From an uncultured Clostridia bacterium (GTDB taxonomy: Bacteria; Bacillota; Clostridia; Lachnospirales; CAG-274): DNA of 64,000 nt. Positions 17,453 to 62,481 of this stretch are shown here, piece by piece. The stretch is from assembly GCA_944383305.1 (NCBI GenBank), contig CALWOZ010000002.1:1-64000 (forward strand), written 5' to 3'. Each line of letters opens with the position of its first letter. Positions within the stretch are counted from its first letter, which is position 1. Both the position numbers and the translations under genes were made by a program. The notes beneath the pieces are model-generated. The model was not told the DNA's origin. It did not search any database and worked only from the letters and a program-made list of their open reading frames with translations.

Positions 17453-19987
17453 TTATTTTAAATTATCTTTAATGTTTTCATAAGGTTCTGGTTTTGCAAA
17501 ATAATAACCTTGAGAAAAATGTATATCTAACTCTTCTATAATGCTTTGTATATGCTCGTTTTCAACAAATTCTGCTATAAGTTCAGCGTCTAATTGTTTA
17601 CCTAAAAATACGATATTATTCAAAATCTTTTTATTCATAATATCACTATCTATATTTTTAACTATACTTCCATCTACTTTAATAAAATCAGGAGCAATTT
17701 TAGCTATTTCCATAAAGTTAGAATAGCCCGTACCAAAATCATCAATAGCAATATTAACATTATATTCTCTAGCTCTGTCTATAAACTTTTTAAGCATATT
17801 CATATCTCTAAAATTTTCATCTTCTAGTATTTCAAATATAAATTTACTTCGATTTTCAATTTTTTCTAGTTGTTCAAATATTGCATCTTGTACAGACTGA
17901 GAATTTATATCATATGCTGATAAATTTATAGATACATTTGTATTTTTATCTTTGAATAGTTCAAATACCTGTTCTAACATCATTTTACTTAGAGATGGAT
18001 AAAGATTATATTTTTTGGCTACCTCCATAAAATGATAAGGGGTATATATTTTACCATTTTTATCTCTAATACGCATTAAAGCTTCATATTTATTAATAGT
18101 TTTAAGTTTGTTATCATATATACCTTGAAAATAAGGTATAACCCACTTATTTTTAATAACCTGGTTTAATAAATGTATAGTTTCCATTTCATTATCAAAT
18201 GTTATGTCATCATCATAAGAATTGTCATAAACTAAAAAGTATGTTTGTAAGCTTTTACACTTTTGCAAAGTTTCTAAGCCACATTCTAATAAGTTATTTT
18301 CGTTACATACAACAGCAAATCTAAATATCATTAATTCATCTCTGTTAGGGATTTTAACAAATTGGAAATTTTCATAGATTTCATTAATAAAATCTGTAAA
18401 TTTGTTATCATTCATACTATTTCCAACTGCTAAAAATATAGTATTATCATTTAAGGTATATATATCATAGTTATTATTATAAGCAGAGTAGTTATCAATA
18501 AAGTTAGATAATGATTTTATAACATTTTTAATAAAAGTATAATATGTTTCTTTACCAACTCTAGACATAAGTAATTCAGAGTTTTCTAACTGGAGCATAC
18601 ATACTTTATTAAAGTTTCTTTCAGATTTTTCGTGTAAAAATTTTATACTGTTGTTAATACCAAGATTTTTATCTATATATATGCCTTCTTCAGACATTTT
18701 TTGATATAGAAGTATTTTTTCTAATAATTTTTTATTTTCTTCTGTTATAGCATTACTTTGTTTTCTCAAAACTATGTTTAATAGTTTTTCATTATCATCT
18801 TTTATTTTATTTATTTCGTCAAATGCTGAAAAGTCAACATTTATATATTTAGAGTTATCTTCGGATATACCAACAAAGCAACAAGAACCATTTAAAAGCT
18901 CATTTTTATTATTTATATATGAAATCTCACCCATCATAAATACACCACATATATTGCTTCCAAAAGGACTTATTTCCCAGCTAGCACAATTACTTAAATA
19001 TAGCTTTCTAAATAGGCAAGAATAAAAAAATAAACTTTCAATAGGTTGATTTTTAATAGAGTTACATATTTTATACATTTCTTGTATACATTTCATAGGA
19101 CTGACATAACCTATTCTAAAAGGAGTATTATCTTTTAACTTTGAAAAGTAAAAAGTCATATTTTTATTTAAAGAATCATACTTTATAAATCGACTAACAT
19201 TGCTAGAGTTATATCCTTCTAATATAAGAGGAAATCTAACTAACGTATCATTTTCAACAAGTGCTTGCCAATCATTATAATCTTTTAAATCTTCCATACC
19301 AAACTGGTCTTTACACCACTCTATTGCAGAAGTATTTTCAATTTCTAATAGTGTATTGCCATCACAAGATGTTAAAGTGTACACAGGACTAATAGGCTCA
19401 TGAGCAACATTAACATCTGTAAAAATATATAAATTTTTAGTTATAAGGCTAGCAGTAACTATACCGTGTTCTATGACCCCTTCTTCTGTAAACACATAAG
19501 GAGGAAGATTTTTAGGTAAAACTTCTCCTAAAACACCACCAACTAGTCTAGTAGTATTGTTTAAACTGTTAAAATCATCAACAAAATCACTTATATCTGT
19601 ATAATAATCACTACATAAAATATGCATTAGAGGAACTTCTAAACCAACAATACTATTATTTACTTCTTTTGCAAGAGTATATGTATCCTTGTCCTTAAAA
19701 TGATGAACACTTATCTTAATATCCACATTTTCAAATTGTTCTATAATAATTAATGTTTCCTCATCAAATTGTTTACCATTAAATACAAGTCCACTACAAC
19801 TACCACCTATTAGACTTGAGTTTGGTATAATATTTTTTACTATTCTAACAACTTCTAATATTTCAGTTGGACTATGAATAGCTGTATATATTCTAATGAA
19901 ACAATCTTTTTCAAGGTTTAGATTTTTACTATTTATGAAATTTTCAAAATGTTGTTTTCCTTTATAAAGCGTACTTAATGTTATCAT
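17453..19987 (-). CDS. FIST sensor - degenerate GGDEF - EAL cyclic-di-GMP phosphodiesterase
   Basis: An 844-aa cytoplasmic protein without membrane helices. Residues about 1-215 form a FIST N domain (LIGGSCSGLVFNG), about 220-390 a FIST C domain, about 440-590 a GGDEF-like domain without a GGDEF motif, and about 600-840 an EAL domain. All expected EAL landmarks are visible: YEALMR, INLSA, FEILE, IDDFGTG, DFIKVDG, AEFVE and SQGYYFAKP, so c-di-GMP hydrolysis is likely. FIST is thought to bind small ligands such as amino acids, so the enzyme may link a metabolite signal to c-di-GMP. Type IV pili, a common c-di-GMP target, are encoded 22 kb away. ATG 19987 follows AGAGGT. Confidence 0.92.
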   Translation of the reverse strand: MITLSTLYKGKQHFENFINSKNLNLEKDCFIRIYTAIHSPTEILEVVRIVKNIIPNSSLIGGSCSGLVFNGKQFDEETLIIIEQFENVDIKISVHHFKDKDTYTLAKEVNNSIVGLEVPLMHILCSDYYTDISDFVDDFNSLNNTTRLVGGVLGEVLPKNLPPYVFTEEGVIEHGIVTASLITKNLYIFTDVNVAHEPISPVYTLTSCDGNTLLEIENTSAIEWCKDQFGMEDLKDYNDWQALVENDTLVRFPLILEGYNSSNVSRFIKYDSLNKNMTFYFSKLKDNTPFRIGYVSPMKCIQEMYKICNSIKNQPIESLFFYSCLFRKLYLSNCASWEISPFGSNICGVFMMGEISYINNKNELLNGSCCFVGISEDNSKYINVDFSAFDEINKIKDDNEKLLNIVLRKQSNAITEENKKLLEKILLYQKMSEEGIYIDKNLGINNSIKFLHEKSERNFNKVCMLQLENSELLMSRVGKETYYTFIKNVIKSLSNFIDNYSAYNNNYDIYTLNDNTIFLAVGNSMNDNKFTDFINEIYENFQFVKIPNRDELMIFRFAVVCNENNLLECGLETLQKCKSLQTYFLVYDNSYDDDITFDNEMETIHLLNQVIKNKWVIPYFQGIYDNKLKTINKYEALMRIRDKNGKIYTPYHFMEVAKKYNLYPSLSKMMLEQVFELFKDKNTNVSINLSAYDINSQSVQDAIFEQLEKIENRSKFIFEILEDENFRDMNMLKKFIDRAREYNVNIAIDDFGTGYSNFMEIAKIAPDFIKVDGSIVKNIDSDIMNKKILNNIVFLGKQLDAELIAEFVENEHIQSIIEELDIHFSQGYYFAKPEPYENIKDNLK

Positions 19988-49056: not shown

Positions 49057-49409
49057 GGGGATGCAATGGTTTCGACGGGGGTTTTGAAGATAGAGATAGC
49101 CATTCGTAGAGAGGTCTACGTTAAAAACTCAAAATTCTTAAAAATTAAACGACAAAGATAATTTTGCGTTTGCAGCTTAATTAAAAGCTGCCATCAGCCT
49201 TTAGTCGCTTACTGCTAAAGTTACTGGTGCCGAATAGGTAAGGAACTTTACTCTATAAGCTTTGCTAGAGTAAAAGATATTATGAAGCTACTTAAAATAA
49301 TAAACTTGTTAGTTAGTGGTTATTTTAGGGAATGTTTTTTAACTAACTGTAATGGGAGAGTTCTTTATTGACGGGCTTTCGGACAGGAGTTCGATTCTCC
49401 TCATCTCCA
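49057..49409 (+). ncRNA. ssrA: Transfer-messenger RNA (tmRNA)
   Basis: The 5 prime end GGGGATGCAATGGTTTCGAC and the 3 prime TTCGATTCTCCTCATCTCCA form the tRNA-like part; GGGGATG pairs with CATCTCC. CCA is not encoded (ATAC follows), so it must be added. The tag reading frame ends GCG TTT GCA GCT TAA, so the tag finishes in AFAA; it probably begins near NDKDNF, but the resume codon is not certain. tmRNA with SmpB rescues stalled ribosomes. Its 3 prime end is a frequent phage integration site, and phage remnants follow here. Confidence 0.97.
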
Positions 49410-49507
49410 TACTATATAATTTTAATACTTTAAAACCTTTTAAAGCCTTGATTTTTCAAGGTTTTTTATTTTATAAATTTATCAAAAATAATAAAAAAGG
49501 ATAAATT

Positions 49508-59095: not shown

Positions 59096-59797
59096 CTATT
59101 TATTTTTCATTTTATTTTCATATAAGTATCTTGCTATATATATAAAAGGAGTATCTAAAATACTAGTTATTATAAATATAATATAGCTAGCTATAAATAT
59201 ACTTATTATAGTATTAAAATCATACACACCATAAAAAGCAAAAAATGTAAATAAAAGGGAATTTATAAGCTGAGAGGTAAGAGTAGAAAAGTTGTTTCTA
59301 ACCCAAAGAAATTTTCTTTTATCACCACTAATTTTTTCTGTAAGTTCCCACCATTTATGATATATCCAAACGTCAAAAAATTGACTTATAGCATATACAA
59401 CTAAGCTAGCTATCATAAGTCTAGGAGTATTAGAAAAAATCATTTTAAAAGGCTCATCCATACCATTAGTTACATCATATAAAAACCAGCTTTGAGATAT
59501 AATGACAAATGATACAGAGGTTAATAGTCCAGCTACAACAGCTTTTTTAGAACTTTTCTTACCATAAAATTCACTTAATATGTCTGTTGCTAAAAAACTT
59601 GCACCAAATAAAACGTTACCAAGAGTTTGTTCTAAGGAAAAGGCTTTTACAACTAATAATACTTCTATGTTAGCAGTAATAACAGTAAATACAGTAAAAC
59701 ATATAAGCCCTTTTTCTCCTAAAAGATAAAACCATACTAAAACAAGACCATATATAACAAATACTGATAATATTAAAAGAATTTCATTACTAATCAT
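59096..59797 (-). CDS. Queuosine precursor transporter (YhhQ family)
   Basis: A 233-aa protein with about six membrane helices. The motifs ASFLATDILSEFYGKKSSKKAV and SQFFDVWIYHKWWE, and a late WVRNNFSTLTSQ, are the YhhQ/DUF165 (Vut_1) signature. YhhQ imports preQ0, preQ1 or queuine for tRNA queuosine modification. ATG 59797 follows GGAGGTAAC; the upstream ATG frame is less likely. It overlaps the radical SAM gene by 8 nt, so the two act together. No preQ1 riboswitch was recognised upstream. Confidence 0.9.
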   Translation of the reverse strand: MISNEILLILSVFVIYGLVLVWFYLLGEKGLICFTVFTVITANIEVLLVVKAFSLEQTLGNVLFGASFLATDILSEFYGKKSSKKAVVAGLLTSVSFVIISQSWFLYDVTNGMDEPFKMIFSNTPRLMIASLVVYAISQFFDVWIYHKWWELTEKISGDKRKFLWVRNNFSTLTSQLINSLLFTFFAFYGVYDFNTIISIFIASYIIFIITSILDTPFIYIARYLYENKMKNK

Positions 59798-60512
59798 TTT
59801 TGTTACCTCCAACACCAAAATCTGTATTTTCTAATAAAATATCTACTCTATTATTATTTTTATATATAGGATAAATATATTCTCTAAAGTTTTTTATAGT
59901 ATTAGGGTCTGGTTTAATTTTAGTTTTATTTTTAACCATTATATTTATACATACTCGCTCAAAATTCTCAAGTCCAATAGCAATGTCTTTAAGCATAAAT
60001 TCTATACTTTGTCCAGCTAAACCTTGTAAAAGACAAACTTCATCAAAATACTGTTTTATTATATTAACGTCTTTTTCTTCTATACCTTTATTTAAGAAAC
60101 TTTCTCTATAATAATAATCAAATGTTTCTATACCTATTTTTGTTTTTATGGTTATACCAATATTTTTAAAATGATTTTTTAGATTGGGTATTTCATCTTT
60201 GTGAGCCCAATGACATTCAAAATGTAGTGTATTTATATTTTTATTTATACATACATCTTCGATTTTTTTCATAGTTTTTTTATCTAAGTCTACAAAACTA
60301 CCAGAATTTACAATTTCTAAAGTGTTATATTTACCTGTGACTTTATTTAATTCTTGTTCATTTATTTTAAAACAATAGTCTTCATTTTTGTTAAAATCTG
60401 TATGATAGTCACAAAAACTACATTTTTTCCATTTACAACCACTACCAATAAGTAGAAGAATCTCTCTTTTATTTTTTTCTTCTATAGTAGAGTATCTAAT
60501 TAAATTATCCAT
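59790..60512 (-). CDS. Radical SAM protein, possibly queuine lyase QueL
   Basis: A 240-aa protein whose start has the cluster motif GCKWKKCSFCDYHTD (Cys-x4-Cys-x2-Cys, a variant of the usual x3 spacing), followed by a TIM-barrel-like body (LEIVNSGSF; LHFECHWAH; IGIETFDYYYRES). It overlaps the queuosine-precursor transporter. Some clostridia salvage queuine through a radical SAM queuine lyase (QueL) encoded beside YhhQ-type transporters, so QueL is the best guess; the proof would be sequence comparison. GGAGG precedes ATG 60512. Confidence 0.75.
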   Translation of the reverse strand: MDNLIRYSTIEEKNKREILLLIGSGCKWKKCSFCDYHTDFNKNEDYCFKINEQELNKVTGKYNTLEIVNSGSFVDLDKKTMKKIEDVCINKNINTLHFECHWAHKDEIPNLKNHFKNIGITIKTKIGIETFDYYYRESFLNKGIEEKDVNIIKQYFDEVCLLQGLAGQSIEFMLKDIAIGLENFERVCINIMVKNKTKIKPDPNTIKNFREYIYPIYKNNNRVDILLENTDFGVGGNKND

Positions 60513-60632
60513 ATAATCCTCCGTTTTATTAAGACAGAAAAACCACTAAAACTATGCCAAACTAAAAATATGTAAAATAGGTTATAATTTATTATTTTTA
60601 ATAATATAAATATTGTATTGATATAAAAATAA

Positions 60633-60791
60633 TAAAAAAGAGCTATATACATAGCTCAAATTAAATAAAATAAAACCAAAAGCATAGCAAATGGTAAGGA
60701 TAATTTTAATTTGACCTAGTTTTGTTTAAAGACAGGAGGGTTTCGAACTGTCTATATAATATTAGCGACAACATATTAATAATATATTATC
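60633..60791 (-). ncRNA. Candidate structured RNA with own promoter and terminator
   Basis: On the minus strand an RNA of about 150 nt can be drawn. It starts about 7 nt after the -10 at 60798-60803. Its hairpins are a TTAGCGA/TCGCTAA stem, a GACAG/CTGTC stem, and a final GAGCTAT/ATAGCTC stem (60640-60657) followed by six T. It holds no ORF. It could be a free small RNA or a leader of the radical SAM gene about 120 bp on; I could not match it to a known riboswitch. Confidence 0.5.
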
Positions 60792-60797
60792 GCTAAC

Positions 60798-60826
60798 ATT
60801 ATAACATAAACAAAACATAAATTCAA
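60798..60826 (-). promoter_or_regulatory. Promoter of the candidate RNA
   Basis: On the minus strand: TTGAAT, 17 bp ending in TGT, and a perfect TATAAT. Confidence 0.72.
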
Positions 60827-60834
60827 TATTAATA

Positions 60835-61551
60835 TTACATCATTTTTATAAATTCTTTTTTTAGCCTATTTATTATTCTTTTTTCTAATCTAGATATATA
60901 TGACTGAGATATACCAAGCATATCGGCAACTTCTTTTTGAGTTTTTTCTATACCATCAGAGAATATACCATATCTAAGTTCAATTATTACACGTTCTCTT
61001 TTATCTAATTTATTTATAGCTTTTTTTAATATATCTCTATCAACTTCTTCTTCTAAATTTTTGTATATTACATCTATATCTGTACCTAAAATATCAGAAA
61101 GAAGTAGTTCATTACCTTCCCAATCAACATTTAAAGGTTCATCTATGGATACTTCTGTTTTTGTTTTAGTATTTCTTCTAAGATACATAAGAATTTCATT
61201 TTCTATACACCTTGTAGCATATGTAGCTAGTTTTATATTTTTATCAGCTCTAAATGTATTTATTGCTTTAATAAGACCTATGCTTCCAATAGATATTAAA
61301 TCCTCCACATTAACTCCAGTATTTTCAAATTTTCTAGCTATATATACAACAAGCCTTAAATTCCTTTCTATAAGCTTTGCTTTTGCCATTTCTTCATCTT
61401 CTGTACCTAAAAGAGATATTATTTCAGTTTCTTCATCATTTGTTAAAGGGGCAGGCAACACATCTGTGCCACCTATATAAAATATAGTGTCATCATCTTG
61501 TTCTTTAAATATATTTATAATATTTTTTAATATACTTTTTACAGTAAGCAT
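60835..61551 (-). CDS. sigE: Sporulation sigma factor sigma-E precursor
   Basis: The 238-aa sigma-70 family protein is the early mother-cell sigma factor. It has a hydrophobic/basic pro-region (about residues 1-27) that SpoIIGA removes, region 2 ([44 protein letters not shown]) and region 4 ([34 protein letters not shown]). Its gene lies 33 bp after spoIIGA, the conserved arrangement. This shows that the organism can form spores or descends from one that could. Confidence 0.95.
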
Positions 61552-61584
61552 AGTATTACCTCCATTTTAAAAATAATTTAATTA

Positions 61585-62481
61585 TTAATAACAATTTAAT
61601 AACTCTGGATTTAAAAGTGCATTATAAAAATTGTCATTTGATAAATTAAAATTTGATATGGCAACAATAGCATCTTTTAATATAATTTTATTTTCTGTAT
61701 GTATTTCTAATTTATCTATTTTTATACCTATTAAAAGTCCACTTTTTTTACCAATACTTTTAAAAGGAATAAAACGTATATCAGCTGTATTATCTAAAGT
61801 TAATAGCTTATTTAAGTCATCTTCTTGCTTTTCATAAAAAATAATTTTTAGTTTTTCTGGAAGAATGGGCTTAATAGCTATAAACTCAGCTATTATTACA
61901 GGTTTTTTCGTTATAGGTTCTTTTAAATTATTACCAGTATCTAAAAGTGCATTTAAACTTACATTTGTATTATTTTTATATAATGTAATGTTATAAAAGC
62001 TTTGTTTTTTTATAAATATTTTTTTATACCAGCTTAAAAAAAGTTTAATTATTATATATGTAGATATTATAGAAATAATAAGTATTTTTAGTGGAAAATG
62101 TTGTATTGTAAAATCTAATAAATTATTTAAAACACTATTTAGATTTATATAATAAAAAAGGGCAATACTTCCACCACCTATACAAAAAGAGGTTATATTT
62201 ACTAATAAAAATATTTTAAAAAAATACTTAATAGTTTTTGGTTTAAATCCAATAATTATAGATATTATAAAAATAAGAGAAACTATAAAAATACTTAAAA
62301 TATTAGAAAAAGGTATAAAAATAATAGTTAAAATATAAAGGAGTGTTGCAAAAAATGAACTAAAAGCAAGTCTTTTTAAACTAATTTTACTTTTAATAAG
62401 TTTATTAACTATAAAAAAAATAAAATATACCATAATAAAGTTTATTAAAAATAAAATATCAACATAAACTTCTATTTGCAT
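61585..62481 (-). CDS. spoIIGA: Sigma-E processing peptidase SpoIIGA
   Basis: A 298-aa membrane aspartic protease that activates pro-sigma-E in the mother cell after a signal from the forespore. The N-terminal half has about five membrane helices (EVYVDILFLINFIMVY start); the C-terminal half has the catalytic DTGN in ALLDTGNNL. It pairs with sigE downstream. GGAGG precedes ATG 62481. Confidence 0.94.
   Translation of the reverse strand: MQIEVYVDILFLINFIMVYFIFFIVNKLIKSKISLKRLAFSSFFATLLYILTIIFIPFSNILSIFIVSLIFIISIIIGFKPKTIKYFFKIFLLVNITSFCIGGGSIALFYYINLNSVLNNLLDFTIQHFPLKILIISIISTYIIIKLFLSWYKKIFIKKQSFYNITLYKNNTNVSLNALLDTGNNLKEPITKKPVIIAEFIAIKPILPEKLKIIFYEKQEDDLNKLLTLDNTADIRFIPFKSIGKKSGLLIGIKIDKLEIHTENKIILKDAIVAISNFNLSNDNFYNALLNPELLNCY

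Follow-up and report, generated by a model that had tools for sequence, protein, structure and literature searches.

The window that we have analysed, a stretch of 64,000 nucleotides from an uncultured Clostridia bacterium, carries on its minus strand, between sigE and two genes of queuine salvage, an RNA that we assign with high confidence to the class I, type I preQ1 riboswitches under transcriptional OFF control: when preQ1 is plentiful, the riboswitch very probably turns off the two salvage genes. An RNA that had formerly been left unassigned is thereby settled, and the loop that would run from preQ1 back to queL is a feedback that can be tested. The kind of riboswitch is already known, since C. 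difficile carries an operon of similar make-up, riboswitch-queK-qrtT-queL; the subgroup found here scores under the standard database cut-off.

Anatomy of the aptamer and of its leader

The aptamer is located at positions 60715-60753 of the minus strand, and is recognised by its match to Rfam family RF00522, by its contact bases and by the covariation of P1. The 6 bp of P1, formed by 60753-60748 (AGACAG) and 60735-60730 (CUGUCU), enclose a 12-nt loop at 60747-60736 (UUCGAAACCCUC), and are followed by L3 at 60729-60720 (UUAAACAAAA) and by the 3' strand of P2 at 60719-60715 (CUAGG). A sequence-only reading of this DNA had found no match to preQ1 riboswitches, a claim that we revise: in a permissive Rfam scan of 351 nt, RF00522 (PreQ1) is the best family (24.7 bits, E 0.0051), and the core of the aptamer is that of relatives which Rfam does accept (L094-L098, see below). 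The gathering score of RF00522, 39, which is a curation threshold and not a structural feature, is not reached, and a plain Rfam scan therefore misses the aptamer; the low score is due to P1 having 6 bp and L3 being 2 nt longer. The remaining Rfam hits here, to two miRNA families, a snoRNA and a Burkholderia sRNA, lie far under their cut-offs and were dismissed. At gathering thresholds, a scan of the whole window returns no preQ1 family and a sole match, a tmRNA gene at 49057-49412 (157 bits).

The marks of type I aptamers, according to an excerpt of PMC11625349, are a UU that follows the P1 5' strand, a UC that precedes the P1 3' strand and a conserved C in the tail; all three are present in the aptamer. 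In the type I structure with two stacked preQ1 molecules, as described in an excerpt of PMC8752633, the contacts are made by U6, U7, U16, C17, A30 and C31, with a C8-A12-U32 ceiling and a P2 that is mostly non-canonical. The aptamer keeps the equivalents of U6, U7, C8, A12, U16, C17, A30, C31 and U32, in a numbering that was transferred by eye with the 12-nt loop counted as positions 6-17; among these are the cytosine beside the 3' strand of P1 (C17, which pairs with preQ1) and the beta-site bases U7, U16 and C31.

The leader begins with a promoter, TTGAAT at 60826-60821 and TATAAT at 60803-60798 with a 17-nt spacer and with TG at 60806-60805 ahead of TATAAT (extended -10), just as had been described; 12 such matches occur in 2.5 kb against a shuffle mean of 21.7, so that the match by itself is no evidence. 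Each of the 8 relatives scanned for them (L010-L017) likewise has promoter-like sites (9-10 of 12 positions matched) ahead of its aptamer. A 5' hairpin of 17 bp with a 3-nt loop follows at 60761-60797; it is strong in the window, L010, L031 and L047, weak in L011, and absent in L046 and in the identical sequences L012 and L024, and we have therefore rejected it as a conserved part and regard it as auxiliary. The intrinsic terminator at 60634-60657 consists of a stem (60657-60640) and a run of six U (60639-60634), and is the sole terminator-like site within the 2.5 kb of 59500-62000, where shuffles give 0.3 +/- 0.5. The predicted fold of the 161-nt stretch has an energy of -36.3 kcal/mol (z -5.4), a stability that none of 200 shuffles equals. 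The structured RNA, the terminator and the three stems of the sequence-only reading are thus all recovered, the stems being the 5' hairpin (60797-60761), the aptamer's P1 and an antiterminator in competition with the terminator; the length of the predicted transcript, and its place between sigE and the salvage genes, are also as had been described.

The upstream neighbour on the same strand, sigE (60835-61551, NF006158, 382.7 bits), is mentioned for context. From its stop codon to the terminator of the riboswitch (60835-60657) there is no other terminator-like site, and the switch may thus end, or attenuate, read-through that comes from spoIIGA-sigE.

Relatives of the aptamer and their conservation

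A search with the downstream protein has revealed 10 queL loci, 8 of which have the same aptamer upstream (RF00522, 23.4-25.4 bits); the two without it are L009, which begins inside the terminator, and L018, which has no RF00522 match. In a comparison of 20 loci of the group with RF00522, 15 gave a match at E <= 1 and the remaining 5 gave none, and none of the group relatives that were scanned with Rfam reaches the cut-off (best score 33.7). We have used, alongside RF00522, a covariance model called R1, built from 8 sequences of this group, for which its scores are circular. At E <= 0.001, R1 has a match in 222 of the order's 392 genomes, and in 193 of 299 when only good-quality genomes are counted; RF00522 matches 6 of 291 genomes of the class at E <= 1e-5, 5 of them over its cut-off, the two sets of counts coming from different thresholds and different genome draws. 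Among 13 genomes of the order, our own included, that were named as having no RF00522 match, 12 have an R1 match.

The genome of origin has one R1 match and a single place with the pattern of the group at up to 2 mismatches; its second RF00522 match (L002, 22.3 bits) was accordingly discarded. A further R1 match in the window, at 19150-19182 (17.1 bits), is regarded as chance and was excluded from the pair counts.

The five loci L094-L098, which do score over the RF00522 cut-off, have their loop and tail core in common with window positions 60753-60708. They align to R1, and their P1 is 1 bp and their L3 2 nt shorter than in the group: after P1 they read AUAA--AAAACUA (5-bp P1), against UUAAACAAAACUA in the group (6-bp P1). 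A longer P1 together with a longer L3 would be what an H-type pseudoknot needs, and the long-P1 form seems to escape the Rfam model; a plain scan at Rfam thresholds leaves preQ1 switches of this order unseen.

The covariance search with homologous regions, which had been proposed as a check of the RNA, speaks for a conserved structure. Our comparison covers 76 aptamers, i.e. the window, 7 queL loci, 28 of 30 R1 loci and 40 hand-picked weaker R1 matches; L015 (a near-duplicate of L014), L009 and L018 (no aptamer), L028 (from the own genome) and L026 (a repeat of L011) were left out, and two repeats are included, as L012 is identical to L024 and L010 to L025. In the 68 distinct rows, 99.3% of the P1 cells are paired, with compensatory changes in 44 cells against 7.4 in shuffles; these counts cover P1, towards which the alignment, fitted to R1, leans. 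Control helices obtained by sliding P1 are paired in 34-48% of cells, with at most 10 cells of both-sided change. Changes on both sides occur at 4 of the 6 pairs, a less telling number, since as many are reached in 22 of 500 shuffles. The outermost pair is the most variable (AU, GC, CG and UA, with 3 cells unpaired), which argues that the sixth pair is real. UU is found in all 76 aptamers, UC in 75 (AC in L076), and AAAACYA, the motif of the A-rich L3 and the downstream P2 strand, again in all 76. In 18 aptamers (L054, L056, L060, L063 and others) the loop has 15 nt instead of 12, possibly a further sub-form.

Proposed switching, controlled genes and a candidate preQ0 reductase

The antiterminator (60652-60718, minus strand) pairs 60718-60705 with 60665-60652 over 14 nt, at 93% complementarity; its first arm begins in the P2 strand and its second arm reaches into the 5' half of the terminator stem, and a duplex of this quality is matched by 0.1% of shuffles. 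We have folded the span from P1 to the end of the terminator, either free or with the aptamer locked (P1 forced, loop and tail unpaired): locking raises the mean pairing probability of the terminator 5' arm from 0.06 to 0.78 in the window, from 0.19 to 0.81 in L010, from 0.22 to 0.90 in L011 and, as weak support, from 0.71 to 0.93 in L012. There is no real change in the distant L013 (0.99/0.99), L014 (0.96/0.97), L016 (0.83/0.85) and L017 (0.95/0.98), in which the duplex is no better than in shuffles and an antiterminator is unsupported. That the antiterminator overlaps the pseudoknot strand as well as the terminator, together with the effect of locking, points to a transcriptional OFF switch. 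With about 60 nt of extra downstream sequence, the free fold of the window also forms the terminator, so that the choice between ON and OFF must fall during transcription; the ON state is predicted to depend on timing.

In the mechanism that we propose, CUAGG and the bases that follow it would pair, in the absence of preQ1, with a stretch that begins ahead of the terminator's 5' arm and extends into it, and this antiterminator would allow RNA polymerase to read through into queL. Binding of preQ1, probably of two molecules stacked on each other, the arrangement known from other type I aptamers, would hold the P2 strand in an H-type pseudoknot; the terminator would then form, and transcription would end about 155 nt from its start. 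QueL converts queuine to preQ1, and the control of queL by preQ1 would hence be a product feedback.

The first controlled gene is queL (59790-60512, minus strand), which encodes a radical SAM queuine lyase of 240 aa: residues 3-235 match PDB 6p78, a queuine lyase (E 2.3e-46), the TIGR01210 match is weak (33 bits, far from the cut-off of 212), and there is no Pfam match. Its end is overlapped by the ORF of a queuosine precursor transporter (QPTR/YhhQ, Vut_1; 59096-59818, minus strand; TIGR00697 161.9 bits, PF02592). The genome, 95.65% complete, has Tgt and QueG, and QueC, QueH and QueF were not found in it; the bacterium thus appears dependent on salvage, like C. difficile.

An ORF lies downstream of 75 of the 76 aptamers, the sequence of L061 ending ahead of any ORF: it is QueD in 23 loci, QueL in 21, QueT in 20, QPTR in 5, a double-cubane protein in 4 and QueE in 2 (in L039, a 145-aa ORF is closer than the QueE that the script chose). 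A terminator-like site separates aptamer and ORF in 53 of these 75 loci, a start codon is located at most 7 nt from the end of the model in 14, and 8 have neither; the group seems, on these counts, to employ both the transcriptional and the translational platform. L031, from G085 of the same genus, has no queL match within its 3-kb locus, and its aptamer is followed, as first ORF found, by that of the transporter; queL may have been lost or moved.

Since the 14 close start codons all precede QueT, and since the type I examples tabulated in PMC11625349, as excerpted, act on translation, the salvage genes here might be controlled at translation; the start codon, however, is 195 nt away with the terminator in between, and the antiterminator overlaps the P2 strand and the terminator, which renders this reading improbable. 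We consider slightly less probable still that the preQ1-I fold has been kept while the ligand has shifted to queuine, preQ0 or another 7-deazaguanine. The substrate of QueL, the product of the first gene after the riboswitch, is indeed queuine, and P1 and L3 are longer than in the Rfam consensus; yet the type I contact bases for preQ1 are retained, the same aptamer precedes genes for making preQ1 (QueD) and for transport (QueT), and an OFF switch on queuine would shut off queuine's own consumer.

The least probable reading is that of a separate, trans-acting small RNA that ends at the terminator, with a likeness to the aptamer by chance or as a relic. Such an RNA would fit the prediction that the transcript terminates after about 155 nt and carries a stable hairpin at its 5' end, but that hairpin is not conserved, while the aptamer is, with covariation over 68 distinct sequences, and the 75 downstream ORFs are queuosine genes or, in 4 loci, heads of queuosine operons. 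The sequence-only reading had offered both a leader of the salvage genes and a small RNA: the leader is likely, and a separate small RNA is not needed to explain the element. We thus retain the preQ1 riboswitch with transcriptional OFF control.

Riboswitches mark the genes of a pathway, and the set of aptamers hence also points to a candidate enzyme of preQ0 reduction for genomes without QueF. In the 4 loci of 75 in which the first gene encodes an HGD-D or double-cubane kind of protein of about 330-340 aa, it is followed by an activase gene and by queD, queE and queC, with folE in L102 and L103; the families were named for L103. Of the order's 392 genomes, such a gene occurs in 10 (G021, G035, G050, G098, G115, G139, G163, G171, G177 and G208; loci L100-L103 and L104-L113), from 5 genera and 3 families, QueD and QueE having been looked at in 4 of the 10. 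In all 10 genomes, an R1 aptamer is located 91-258 nt upstream of the gene, the activase gene follows, and queC lies 1.9-2.6 kb downstream on the same strand. None of the 10 has a QueF match at E <= 1e-5.

Among 95 genomes with QueC, 82 have a QueF match of E below 1e-30, counted as strong, and the other 13 lack one, the 26 genomes with only weak PF14489 matches not being scored as QueF; the double-cubane gene is present in 10 of these 13 and in none of the 82 (Fisher p 2.8e-11, relatedness ignored), which leaves 3 QueC genomes (G016, G044, G056) with neither. Of the QueD-first loci, 22 of 23 are in QueF genomes. Of the 10 double-cubane genomes, 7 have QueG (two under the curated cut-off, one of these with an internal stop) and 3, those of genus g53, gave no QueG match, so that the epoxyqueuosine step is covered in most of them apart from the double-cubane protein. 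The protein itself scores far below the NF040772 cut-off (50 against 350 bits), matches PDB 7yyl and 6eno weakly, and has 4 cysteines that are conserved in all 10.

A riboswitch before this gene, near queC and in genomes with no QueF match, suggests a new preQ0 reductase, i.e. a replacement of QueF; against this, the activase-linked enzyme could perform another step, and one of the 10 genomes, G208, is 73% complete. The joint proposition, that Rfam largely overlooks a long-P1 type I group in this order and that the regulon of this group reveals, in queDE(folE)C operons, a QueF replacement of the double-cubane kind with an ATP-driven activase, has in our estimate an even chance of being right. 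We have found no literature linking queuosine with 2-hydroxyglutaryl-CoA dehydratase, the wider topic being judged by titles, and excerpts of PMC6593275 and PMC11130926 are silent on a double-cubane enzyme in queuosine synthesis. ATP-driven nitrile reduction, if confirmed, would be new enzymology for this pathway.

Comparison with known systems

Excerpts of PMC12519234 describe the control of queL and queK by preQ1 riboswitches, and the nearest system is that of C. difficile (PMC11477304, in excerpt), where a preQ1-I riboswitch precedes queK-qrtT-queL: there, as here, a class I preQ1 riboswitch stands before queuine-salvage genes that include queL, and the bacterium is reportedly unable to make preQ1, a likeness by description and not by sequence. 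The two differ in that C. difficile has QrtT and QueK, whereas the transporter here is of the QPTR type.

The type I aptamer of Carnobacterium antarcticum, as excerpted from PMC8752633, shares U6, U7, U16, C17, A30, C31 and the C8-A12-U32 ceiling with ours; position 10 is C there and A here, and its platform is a Shine-Dalgarno sequence instead of a terminator. The terminator platform is that of Bacillus subtilis, where a pseudoknot stabilised by preQ1 favours the terminator, although the aptamer there is of type II, with AC before the 3' strand of P1 in place of the UC of type I (PMC11625349, in excerpt). With Rfam RF00522, finally, our aptamer has in common the loop and tail core and the location upstream of queuosine genes; it differs in its score (24.7 bits; gathering threshold 39), in a P1 of 6 bp against 5 bp in the Rfam model, and in an L3 that is 2 nt longer than in L094-L098.
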